The position numbers and the translations under genes were made by a program. Below the pieces are notes generated by a model. It had not been told where the DNA came from, ran no database searches, and saw only the letters and a list, made by a program, of their open reading frames with translations. 64,000 nucleotides of DNA from Magnetococcales bacterium (GTDB taxonomy: Bacteria > Pseudomonadota > Magnetococcia > Magnetococcales > DC0425bin3): assembly GCA_015231175.1 (NCBI GenBank), contig JADGBZ010000004.1:1-64000 (forward strand), given 5' to 3'. Below, one piece after another: positions 33,514-37,850 of the stretch (position 1 is its first letter; the number at the start of each line of letters is the position of its first letter).

Positions 33514-33660
33514 GCAACTATTCACCACTTGGCAACGAAGCGGGGTCCAGGGGGCTGGCTCCCTGGCAGGTCCAGGACAGAGTCCTGGTGGGGTTCGGGG
33601 CGAAGCCCTGACAAAAGCTTTCATATCCAAGCCTTTCCTGAAAGGGTGCTGAATAGTTAC
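33514..33660 (+). repeat. Dispersed hairpin repeat, intact 147-bp forward copy
   Basis: Begins gcaactattcaccac and ends gtgctgaatagttac, with all three hairpins intact. One of three full-length copies with the same 147-bp length (others 36720-36866 and 36874-37020). Between the ArnA-type gene and the HU-kinase gene. Confidence 0.9.
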
Positions 33661-33701: not shown

Positions 33702-35132
33702 TCAGGTCGCCGGCGCCTTGGGAAGAGTCACCGTGATGGTGGTGCCCTCTTCCTCGGAGGAGCGCATGGTGATGTGTCCATGTTGGGTTTTGGCGATCAG
33801 CATGGCCGAATAGGTACCCAGACCAGTCCCTGTTGATTTGCCGGAGGTCACATACTTTTCAAAAAACCGGGAGCGAATTTCCTCCGGGACGGCGCCAAAA
33901 TTGTGTATGGTCACCATCACGTTTTCTGCGTGCCCAAACAGGATGGTGATGGGATGCTTTTTGGGGGAGGCCTCCAGGGCGTTTTTGAACACGTTGGTAA
34001 ACATCGAATAGCTGAGCAACTCCTCGCCCCAGAAGAAACACGTATCACTCTCCTCGACAGGGCGGTCATCGATTCGCATCCTCAACTCGACCTGCTTGTA
34101 TTTGATCTGGGCCTTGGCATCGAGCACAATACTGCGCATGATGGAGATCAGATCGATGGATGCAGGGTTGAGTTGGTAGCTGCCCCTCTCCATTCTGAGG
34201 ATACCCAGGGAGAGGTTGACCATGTTGATGGCCCGATAGCCAAGATCTTTGATGATGTGGACGGTGCTCTTGTGTTCCGAGGCCAGGGTGTCCGCCTGTT
34301 CCAGAAAGTCGGCAAAACTGATGATGCCGTTGATGGGTGACTTGAGATCGTGGCGGGTGATGTTTTCAACGTCTTTTTTGAGGGCCTCGGTTGCCTTCAG
34401 GACGGCCAGTTCCTCCCTGGCCACAGCAGAGGCCTTTTCTTCCGTCAAATCCCGGGAGTAACCCACCGACCCCATGACGTTGCCGTTTTTGTCGCGCAGC
34501 AACAGGGCCGTGACCCGGGCGGGAAACTCCTCGCCGTTTTTTTTCCGACCGGTGATCTCACCGATAAAATGGCCTTGGGTGCGCATCTTCTCGCCCACAG
34601 CCAGAAACTCCTCTTCGCGGGCATAGAGCTGGGCGATGGACATGTTCGCCATTTCTTGCGGCGTATAGCCGTAGACCTTTTGCGCCGCCTTGTTGACGAT
34701 CTTGATTTTACGTTGGGCATCCACGGAGACGATCATGTCCGCAGCCAGGTCGATGATGGCGTCGGTGTATTCCGTCTCCTCGACGAGGAGATCCATGGAT
34801 GCCGCGTGGATTTGCCGGTCGTCTTGCGCTGCACAGATATTCCAGCGATCCTCCATGGAGCCTGGCGGTCGAGCCGGATCGGATTTTTCCGGGGTGAAAG
34901 TCACCACCCGGCACGCTGGCAGGTTGATCTCTTCACCTGAATGGTGCAGCCGGATGTTCCGTGCCTGACGGTCCACGGTAGAGAACGTTCCGAAACCTTC
35001 GAGGGTGACCTGGATTCCCTCCTCCAGGCTGTGCCGAATGTTGCGCGTGACGGCCTTGACGGCTTGGGCAGCCTGCTCCAGGCTTAACCCGGTGTCACGG
35101 GCGACTTGCGCTATGAGTTCGGATGGATCCAT
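33702..35132 (-). CDS. HU/IHF-domain fused PAS sensor histidine kinase
   Basis: 476 residues from ATG 35132, where family similarity begins. Residues 1-85 are a complete HU/IHF-type DNA-binding domain (MDPSELIAQVARDTGLS, VTLEGFGTF, GEEINLPACRVVTFTPEK). PAS follows at about 122-235 (ADMIVSVDAQRKIKIVNKAA). The H box is TRHDLKSPING with phosphorylatable His261. HATPase N box has Asn384, G1-like HNFG at 410-413 and G2 GTGLG at 435-439. No receiver domain and no response regulator adjacent, no membrane segment, so cytoplasmic. The HU part may place the kinase on DNA or be its regulated part. Confidence 0.9.
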   Translation of the reverse strand: MDPSELIAQVARDTGLSLEQAAQAVKAVTRNIRHSLEEGIQVTLEGFGTFSTVDRQARNIRLHHSGEEINLPACRVVTFTPEKSDPARPPGSMEDRWNICAAQDDRQIHAASMDLLVEETEYTDAIIDLAADMIVSVDAQRKIKIVNKAAQKVYGYTPQEMANMSIAQLYAREEEFLAVGEKMRTQGHFIGEITGRKKNGEEFPARVTALLLRDKNGNVMGSVGYSRDLTEEKASAVAREELAVLKATEALKKDVENITRHDLKSPINGIISFADFLEQADTLASEHKSTVHIIKDLGYRAINMVNLSLGILRMERGSYQLNPASIDLISIMRSIVLDAKAQIKYKQVELRMRIDDRPVEESDTCFFWGEELLSYSMFTNVFKNALEASPKKHPITILFGHAENVMVTIHNFGAVPEEIRSRFFEKYVTSGKSTGTGLGTYSAMLIAKTQHGHITMRSSEEEGTTITVTLPKAPAT

Positions 35133-35153
35133 GGCCTGCCTTCCCACTCTGAA

Positions 35154-35245
35154 CATGAAAGCCTTCGTCAGGGTCTCGCACCGAACCCCGCCAGGAAAAG
35201 GGCGCGGCCATCCCTCCTGGACCTCCATTCCGGTTCCCCTGGAGT
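35154..35245 (-). repeat. Dispersed repeat, degenerate reverse copy upstream of the HU-kinase gene
   Basis: gaacatgaaagccttcgtcagggtctcgcaccgaaccccgccagg followed by a partly decayed long hairpin (ccatccctcctggacctcc). Type 2 features with mismatches. It lies upstream of the HU-kinase start codon. Confidence 0.65.
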
Positions 35246-35296: not shown

Positions 35297-35923
35297 TCAT
35301 CCGCCGAAGGTCGCCACAAAGCGTTGCCAGTCGGCAGGGGTATCCACATCCCATCGCAGGGGCAGTTCGTGCCACGACCAACCCAGGACGCCGAATCGTT
35401 CCCGCGTAGCCAGGGCCACGGTTGGTGTACTCCAGGCCATGCCCCGAAAGAGGGAGGGGTCGGTTTGGCGCAAGCCCAGCAGGAGGTAACCTCCATCTTC
35501 GGTCGGTCCGAGAACGGCAGGGTGTGTGGTCAGGGCCTGTGCAGCGGCATCCAGATCGGTCAAAGTCAGGGAGACGGCATCACCGCCGATCAGCAGCATG
35601 GCGGGCGACTCCGCCAGAGCGGCCCGGGTGATGGCCGCCATGCGCTCGCCCAGATCTCCCGATGGTTGCAGACGCAACTGCCCGACTTGGGCCAGGTTGG
35701 CACAGGCGGGATGCGTGGTGTTGGGGGTACACCACAACCGAAACAGGCGATCGGGTCCGGCAGCGCACCAGGCACGGGCTTTTGCCACCACGTGTGCCAG
35801 CAACCTGGCATGAGCATGGGCCGCTCCCTCCGCTCCCAGCATCGGCATCAAACGGGTTTTGACCAGACCGGGTTGCGGCACCTTGGCCATGAGGTTCAAA
35901 GAGATGTAAGCCGAGCGCACCAT
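35297..35923 (-). CDS. TIGR04282/DUF2064-type glycosyltransferase-like protein
   Basis: 208 residues with the N-terminal nucleotidyl-sugar-like block NLMAKVPQPGLVKTRLMP, central LLIGGDAVSLT and PTEDGGYLLLGL, and the C-terminal WDVDTPADW. This matches the TIGR04282 (DUF2064) family, small GT-A-fold proteins reported in arsenosugar and other glycan contexts. The substrate here is unknown. Starts 13 bp after the ThiF-like gene. Confidence 0.85.
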   Translation of the reverse strand: MVRSAYISLNLMAKVPQPGLVKTRLMPMLGAEGAAHAHARLLAHVVAKARAWCAAGPDRLFRLWCTPNTTHPACANLAQVGQLRLQPSGDLGERMAAITRAALAESPAMLLIGGDAVSLTLTDLDAAAQALTTHPAVLGPTEDGGYLLLGLRQTDPSLFRGMAWSTPTVALATRERFGVLGWSWHELPLRWDVDTPADWQRFVATFGG

Positions 35924-36677: not shown

Positions 36678-36719
36678 GGTAACCGTTCAGCACCCATCCA
36701 AAAAAAGCTTGAAAAAAAG

Positions 36720-36866
36720 GTAACCATTCACCACCCTTGCAAGAAAAGCTTGGACATGGAAGCCTTTGTCAGGGCTTCGCCCCGAACCCCACCAGGACTC
36801 TGTCCTGGACCTGCCAGGGAGCCAGCCCCCTGGACCCCGATTCGTTGGCGGGTGGTGAATAGTTAC
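36720..36866 (-). repeat. Dispersed hairpin repeat, intact 147-bp reverse copy
   Basis: gtaaccattcaccaccc at the left and gggtggtgaatagttac at the right form the 17-bp terminal inverted repeat with one mismatch. A partial left end of another copy (gtaaccgttcagcaccc to gaaaaaaag) precedes it at 36679-36719. Confidence 0.92.
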
Positions 36867-36873
36867 AAAAAAA

Positions 36874-37020
36874 GTAACTATTCAGCACCCTTTCAAAAAA
36901 AGCCTGGATATGAAAGCCTTTGTCAGGGCTTCGCCCCGAACCCCACCAGGACTCTGTCCTGGACCTGCCAGGGAGCCAGCCCCCTGGACCCCGATTCGTG
37001 GTCGGGTGGTGAATAGTTAC
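36874..37020 (-). repeat. Dispersed hairpin repeat, second intact 147-bp reverse copy in tandem
   Basis: Begins gtaactattcagcaccc only 7 bp after the previous copy and ends gggtggtgaatagttac. Same orientation and the same internal hairpins. Together they fill the gap between the SUMF1 and ThiF-like genes. Confidence 0.92.
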
Positions 37021-37028
37021 GAAAGATA

Positions 37029-37850
37029 TCACTCCCCTTTGGGTCGGGCAGCGCTGCGGGCGACGCGGAAACCAAGGCTTTCTCTCCGCTCCTCCCCGGA
37101 AATGCCGCCCCGATTGGCACATCGTACATACCACGAAGTGCCATCCCAGGAACCCCCGCGATAAACACGGTTGGAATTGTTCTCTTCGTACAGAGGATCC
37201 ACGGGTGCGTGTTTTTTGTAGGCCTGTTCCTGGTAGGCATCCTGGACGAACTCCCAGATATTACCCAATATGTCATGCAGACCGAAAGCGTTGGGGCGCA
37301 ACTGGCCCACCGGGTGCATTTCGTTGCGGGAGTCGCCGTCAAACCATGCATAGAGGCTCATTTCATCGACTCGGTTTCCCCAGAAACGCGACGTTGTCGA
37401 TCCGGCCCGGCAGGCATACTCCCACTCGGCCTCCGTGGGCAAACGGTAGGTTGTGGTCTTTTCCATGATGTTCAGACGCCGGATAAACTCCTGCACATCA
37501 CTCCAGCTCACCTGATCGACGGGAAGATCCCGTGCCCTGAATTTGCTGGGGTTCTCTTGCATCACAGCCACCCATTGTGCCTGCGTCACCTCATACTTGC
37601 CCAGGTAGAATGGTTTGCCGATAGTGACACGATGCTGCGGCATCTCATCGGGGAAGGCCTCGGCATCAAAATTTTTGTCGGAACCCATCATGAAGGTTCC
37701 GGATGGTATCAGAACGAACTCCATGCCAAGGCGATTGGCATAGACCTTGACAGACTCGGTGCGCACCGGCCCATGTCCAGTTGGTTGCGCTGCAACCGAC
37801 GCGGCAGCAACCAACCAACCAAAAAGAGTCAAGCAACAAAACCGTTTCAT
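37029..37850 (-). CDS. Secreted SUMF1/formylglycine-generating-enzyme-like domain protein
   Basis: 273 residues. Signal peptide (CCLTLFGWLVAAASVAA), then one SUMF1 domain from about residue 40: EFVLIPSGTFMMGSD, LGKYEVTQAQW, LPVDQVSWSDVQEFIRRLN, RLPTEAEWEYACRAG, GLHDILGNIWEFVQD and RVYRGGSW. True FGE copper-site cysteines are not evident, so it probably belongs to the large group of non-FGE SUMF1/C-type-lectin-like exported proteins. No sulfatase is nearby. Transcribed after the PP-loop gene with a 52-bp gap. Confidence 0.88.
   Translation of the reverse strand: MKRFCCLTLFGWLVAAASVAAQPTGHGPVRTESVKVYANRLGMEFVLIPSGTFMMGSDKNFDAEAFPDEMPQHRVTIGKPFYLGKYEVTQAQWVAVMQENPSKFRARDLPVDQVSWSDVQEFIRRLNIMEKTTTYRLPTEAEWEYACRAGSTTSRFWGNRVDEMSLYAWFDGDSRNEMHPVGQLRPNAFGLHDILGNIWEFVQDAYQEQAYKKHAPVDPLYEENNSNRVYRGGSWDGTSWYVRCANRGGISGEERRESLGFRVARSAARPKGE

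Follow-up and report, generated by a model that had tools for sequence, protein, structure and literature searches.

Histidine kinases gain inputs by exchanging their N-terminal modules, as a rule either domains that sense a ligand or anchors in the membrane. A kinase and a DNA-binding-type domain can also share one chain, as in the hybrid two-component systems (e.g., the HTCS of Bacteroides), which contain a receiver and a C-terminal AraC-type helix-turn-helix. HU itself is a small, free nucleoid protein whose usual task is to fold bacterial DNA; HU-fold domains within larger proteins are found in the HU-HIG and HU-CCDC81 families (PF18291 and PF18175). For a soluble signaling protein on the nucleoid, the closest described case is FrzCD of Myxococcus xanthus, a soluble, dimeric cytoplasmic chemoreceptor bound to DNA, for which the nucleoid serves as scaffold (PMC12077210).

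Here, we describe a gene from a 64,000-nt stretch of Magnetococcales DNA (the window) in which a domain of the HU/IHF type precedes a PAS histidine kinase. Pfam-A returns neither a receiver nor a C-terminal helix-turn-helix in this chain, which sets it apart from the HTCS, and no match to an MCP signaling domain. The HU-HIG and HU-CCDC81 models match below threshold (24.7 and 24.1 bits against cut-offs of 26.2 and 35); the fused domain fits classical HU far better (70.6 bits), and its partner is a kinase. In contrast to the protein described here, FrzCD is not itself a kinase: as a chemoreceptor, it passes its signal on to one. FrzCD and the HU-kinase are not homologous as a whole. Their likeness, a soluble dimeric signaling protein with a DNA-binding part, is one of mechanism only and would apply if the explanation favored below holds.

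We found no published HU-kinase fusion in an open-access library of papers, and the main text of a 2015 survey of two-component domain organization mentions neither IHF nor histone-like domains. This agrees with the initial annotation of the locus, which did not recognize the architecture as a described system. As far as searched, HU is an unreported N-terminal module for a histidine kinase. A module of this type would put the sensor on the chromosome and provide a small system in which to study whether bacterial signaling originates from, or concerns, the state of the nucleoid.

Architecture of the HU-Kinase Gene

The gene and its parts are arranged in the window as follows.

33702..35132, minus strand: HU-PAS-HisKA-HATPase_c histidine kinase, predicted to be soluble, 476 aa (frame, Pfam-A, comparison with the second species)
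35133..35152, minus strand: upstream region with the ribosome-binding-like sequence GGGAAGG (read from the sequence)
34884..35132, minus strand: HU/IHF-fold domain, residues 1-83 (PF00216, 1.3e-19; AF2 pLDDT; Foldseek)
34896..34982, minus strand: β-arm region, residues 51-79, tip R-L-H-H-S-G-E-E compared with R-N-P-x-T-G (alignment)
34788..34883, minus strand: linker, residues 84-115, with the invariant core DRWNIC...QDDR (two-species comparison)
34428..34787, minus strand: PAS sensor domain, approximately residues 116-235 (Pfam-A)
34188..34415, minus strand: DHp/HisKA dimerization and phosphoacceptor region, residues ~240-315 (Pfam-A, homolog alignment)
about 34350-34352, minus strand: His261, in the H-box of HisKA
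33714..34010, minus strand: HATPase_c catalytic domain, residues 375-473 (Pfam-A)
within 33714..34010, minus strand: HATPase_c boxes, N box NVFKNALEAS, F box RFFEKY, G2 box GTGLGTYSA

HU and kinase lie in a single unbroken frame of 476 codons plus stop, as initially annotated with the right coordinates, strand and frame. The start codon is the ATG at 35132, with the GGGAAGG sequence 5' of it. The frame is open further upstream, as far as a TTG at 35381. In the homolog from a second species of the genus (genome G002), an in-frame stop lies one codon ahead of that gene's own ATG, which is equivalent in position to 35132. Hence, the start is placed at 35132.

PF00216 matches residues 1-83 with 70.6 bits against a cut-off of 22.4 (1.3e-19), followed by PAS (~130-231), HisKA (260-309) and HATPase_c (375-473) in Pfam-A. 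NCBIfam is concordant, with IHF-alpha and HU-beta models at 1-83 and sensor kinase models over 115-473. The largest 19-residue Kyte-Doolittle mean is 1.06, too little hydrophobicity for a membrane anchor, and from its sequence the protein is soluble and devoid of a membrane segment. The gene is flanked by a NAD-dependent epimerase and a DUF2064 protein (Pfam-A). No receiver adjoins it in the window (Pfam-A), and none is recognized beside the G002 copy. The earlier observations that the kinase has neither an anchor nor a neighboring response regulator were borne out in the window.

Conservation of the Fusion in a Second Species

The G002 gene is likewise 476 codons long and aligns without a gap to the window gene, with 67% identity overall. 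Its HU part is 66% identical and scores 69.9 bits with PF00216. Conservation is unevenly spread over the protein. The PAS domain is the most conserved (79% identical in the two species), and among the remaining segments the arm (residues 51-79) reaches 76%, residues 1-50 60% and the linker between HU and PAS 50%. In the HU part, differences at codon positions 1, 2 and 3 amount to 0.20, 0.22 and 0.64, and in every segment of the gene third codon positions take most of the differences. Selection was judged by these position-wise differences and by NG86, in which dS is saturated in parts. The lack of any indel in 476 codons, together with changes mostly at third positions, shows that the fusion is under selection.

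The G002 gene lies next to rnhB and a gene for a 574-aa protein, neighbors that differ from the flanks in the window. Thus, the HU-kinase gene has stayed whole while its surroundings were rearranged. The 574-aa protein (L049:1484-3208, minus strand) is encoded directly downstream of the G002 gene and has a low-complexity middle rich in Pro, Ser and Gly. Pfam yields no significant match to it, and it is not found beside the window copy.

The HU-kinase fusion is a true gene. The alternative, in which separate genes for a free HU and a kinase were merged artificially by frameshift or misassembly, has next to no probability. The genome is a draft of 175 contigs, and beyond that no point supports an artifact; the same 476-codon gene recurs free of indels in a second species, in another neighborhood and with an excess of third-position change. 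A sequencing error joining two genes, which the initial annotation had named in advance as refuting its reading, is excluded by the gap-free G002 gene.

Retained and Lost Features of the HU Domain

The fused domain aligns with E. coli HU-beta over 83 residues without a gap. AF2 models it, from a two-sequence alignment, in the helix-helix-arm order with pLDDT of about 81-92 over residues 1-80, and Foldseek matches the model with probability 1.00 to solved HU/IHF structures including 4qjn and 3rhi. Fold and length register over residues 1-83 are therefore those of free HU/IHF proteins. Both species keep Gly46-Phe47-Gly48, the residues Phe47, Phe50 and Phe79 of the hydrophobic dimer core, the arm residues Arg55, Arg58 and Arg61, and a Lys or Arg at position 83.

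The fused domain differs from free HU/IHF by its position N-terminal to a kinase and by several losses common to both species. The RNP tip of the arm is altered to R-L-H or R-I-H, followed by H-[S/T]-G-E-E, so that the intercalating Pro63 is replaced by His and Asn62 by Leu or Ile. The RNP motif is present in each of the genome's four free HU/IHF proteins. Val45 is replaced by Glu. Lys3 and Lys18 are lost; of the two species, one has Pro and the other Arg at position 3. Helix 3 is lacking: the PF00216 match stops at position 83 of 90, and the AF2 model has no helix at 83-92. The net charge of residues 1-83 is -2, compared with +2 to +7 in a set of free proteins comprising E. coli HU/IHF, B. 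stearothermophilus HU and the four free proteins of this genome.

In HU, Pro63 is the intercalating residue, Arg55, Arg58 and Arg61 are needed for binding, and Gly46 and Lys83 form with Val45 the phosphate lock and pivot (PMC6523023; PMC9578482). Judged by these published roles, the domain has kept most of the contacts to the DNA backbone and lost the parts that produce a kink. The changes at Pro63, Asn62, Val45, Lys3 and Lys18 and the net charge of -2 predict weaker DNA binding, possibly none. The HU domain had first been described as complete. This holds for its fold, its core and Arg55, Arg58 and Arg61; it does not hold for RNP/Pro63, Val45, Lys3, Lys18 and helix 3, nor for its charge, which is net acidic.

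The arm is the best-conserved stretch of the HU domain, which suggests that it has some function. Metal binding by the conserved His63, His64 and Cys74 was considered and rejected, as a long distance is expected between the tip of the arm and its base. An HU fold devoid of its bending tip, with phosphate-contact arginines retained under selection, provides a natural test of which function each part of HU serves.

Kinase Core and HU-less Relatives

The kinase part looks functional from its sequence. H261, in the normal HDLKSP phosphorylation site reported initially and within the HisKA match (260-309), is invariant in 10 homologs. N380/N384, F423-F424 and G435-G439 of the N, F and G2 boxes are invariant in the same 10 homologs. 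At the position of the G1 box DxGxG, the protein reads HNFGAVP. A similar HNxGxVP is found across relatives L008-L018, and Asn411-x-Gly413 is invariant in the whole subfamily; hence, the G1 variant is probably a family trait rather than decay. AF2 models of the full-length protein are poor outside the HU part (mean pLDDT 42), and the linker between HU and PAS is of low confidence in low-depth models.

In this order, the subfamily to which the kinase core is assigned is much expanded. The nearest HU-less relatives of the core, the predicted soluble orphan kinases L008-L015 of the same order, are 48-52% identical from about residue 104-117 onward. They share the PAS-DHp-CA core (~50% over 117-473), the RHD[LM]KSP motif, the N, F and G2 boxes and the G1-like HN.G.VP. 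They differ in their N-termini, which are short or unrelated and never HU. Of the more distant relatives, L016 and L017 have receivers, and L018 has a longer N-terminus that resembles a sensor. HU is thus one more module at a module-swapping site of the subfamily.

No receiver was recognized beside L008-L015. Five of these genes from another genus (L009, L011, L012, L013 and L014) repeatedly lie, by eye, beside murJ/mviN-like or ispH-like genes, and a murJ-kinase-ispH neighborhood is possibly conserved among the HU-less relatives.

Occurrence of the Fusion

Across 48 genomes of the order, 248 HU matches were obtained (128 and 120), with frame length taken from stop to stop; only the fusions of the window and G002 lie in frames exceeding 254 codons. 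Neither the third species of the genus (G001, genome 76% complete) nor the other genus of the family (G003) yielded the fusion. No other full-length match to the protein was obtained among 60 relatives, nor among the matches listed for 399 genomes of the phylum. These 399 genomes were also searched with a model built from the fused HU and its linker; among the best matches listed, only the window and G002 show long uninterrupted frames, a search that could miss independent fusions carrying a different HU. Three genomes have many HU/IHF-type genes for a single bacterium (16, 11 and 10 matches in G013, G036 and G045, respectively).

With the HU domain as query, a scan that required exact short peptides returned solely an ordinary IHF-beta of Herbaspirillum from 84,980 species genomes. 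IMG/VR gave no match, and the names of the plasmid matches listed are those of ordinary kinases. One of the candidates, a Priestia plasmid protein (matching residues 5-471, 22%), was rejected as a HU-kinase: it has two PAS domains and no HU. Within the sampled genomes of the order, the HU-kinase fusion is confined to one genus. Independent HU-kinase fusions may occur outside the order, where the searches covered the best matches listed or needed close similarity.

Possible Roles of the HU Module

HU and the DHp helices are both obligate twofold dimers in established structures. Hence, their fusion is stoichiometrically natural. We favor, at roughly even confidence, the explanation that the HU dimer serves as an address tag that places a soluble PAS kinase on the nucleoid, either by touching DNA weakly and without kinking it or by pairing with free HU there. 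In one genus, an N-terminal HU derived from free HU would have been added to a soluble orphan PAS histidine kinase. HU and DHp dimers would then combine into one symmetric homodimer, whose two HU arms might hold the DNA backbone or minor groove weakly through Arg55, Arg58, Arg61 and Lys/Arg83. Such docking would lack the proline-driven kink. Alternatively, the fused HU might pair with free HU on DNA. With PAS sensor and kinase thus located on the nucleoid, PAS would sense a cytoplasmic cue and govern autophosphorylation at His261, from which the phosphate may pass to an unlinked receiver. The HU fold and profile, the retention of Arg55, Arg58, Arg61, Gly46 and Lys/Arg83, the 76% identity of the arm, the intact H, N, F and G2 boxes of the kinase, the lack of a membrane anchor and the precedent of FrzCD support this tether; the changes of Pro63, Asn62, Val45, Lys3 and Lys18 and the charge of -2 count against it. 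The same acidic charge, together with Glu45 and the loss of Pro63, Lys3, Lys18 and helix 3, would be expected of the main rival to a DNA tether, docking on protein only. There, the HU part would not bind DNA and would act as a dimerization or docking module that steadies the kinase dimer or binds a protein, possibly free HU/IHF subunits, via the altered arm. That the new tip R[LI]HH[ST]GEE is itself conserved is consistent with such a role. However, a pure dimerization module would need none of the retained Arg55, Arg58 and Arg61 or the basic residue 83, and we regard this rival as somewhat unlikely, with a substantial chance of being right.

The HU part might also act directly on signaling. 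If DNA were the input, the HU dimer would grip DNA without a kink, read its structure (nicks, bends), supercoiling or compaction, and signal via the linker and PAS to the DHp helices so as to switch autophosphorylation. HU occupies the site of other N-terminal modules in the kinase family, and DNA shape guides binding by HU-type proteins (PMC6523023). Yet the poorly conserved linker (50%) and its low model confidence argue against tight mechanical coupling, and PAS, at 79%, is the more conserved sensor; this reading is doubtful. If true, the protein would be a two-component sensor with the chromosome itself as stimulus, a direct sensor of nucleoid state. The reverse direction, in which the state of the kinase controls the HU part and alters local DNA shape, draws on the covalent joining of the domains only, and the bending apparatus (tip proline and RNP motif) is missing in both species. 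A kinase should, moreover, be much scarcer in the cell than HU, which counts against kinase-controlled DNA shaping. We consider it very improbable, and control of DNA bending by the kinase, raised in the initial annotation, is the least likely of the options given there, as the RNP motif and the intercalating proline are lost. With the kinking parts lost and the domain net acidic, a tether without kinking, or docking and dimerization, fits better.

A Dispersed Repeat Around the Gene

Copies of a dispersed repeat bracket the HU-kinase gene and lie in the window as follows.

33516..33660, plus strand: full repeat copy, 41 nt past the stop codon of the HU-kinase gene
35150..35243, minus strand: diverged partial copy directly upstream of the HU-kinase gene
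36720-36864 and 36874-37018, minus strand: repeat copies

The repeat is ~145-154 bp long, and its copies are usually >90% identical. Its matches in the genome number at least 50, with 674 candidates at first look. A core of ~67 bp is common to the same genus and to a distant genus of the order (G036). In several spurious ORFs, the repeat translates as KAFVRASPRTPPGLCPGPAREPAPWTP. It resembles a small mobile element or one of the REP/MITE kind. At window positions 36713-37020, two copies lie in tandem (154 bp, 94% identical) and adjoin a gene of the FGE-sulfatase type at 37029-37850.
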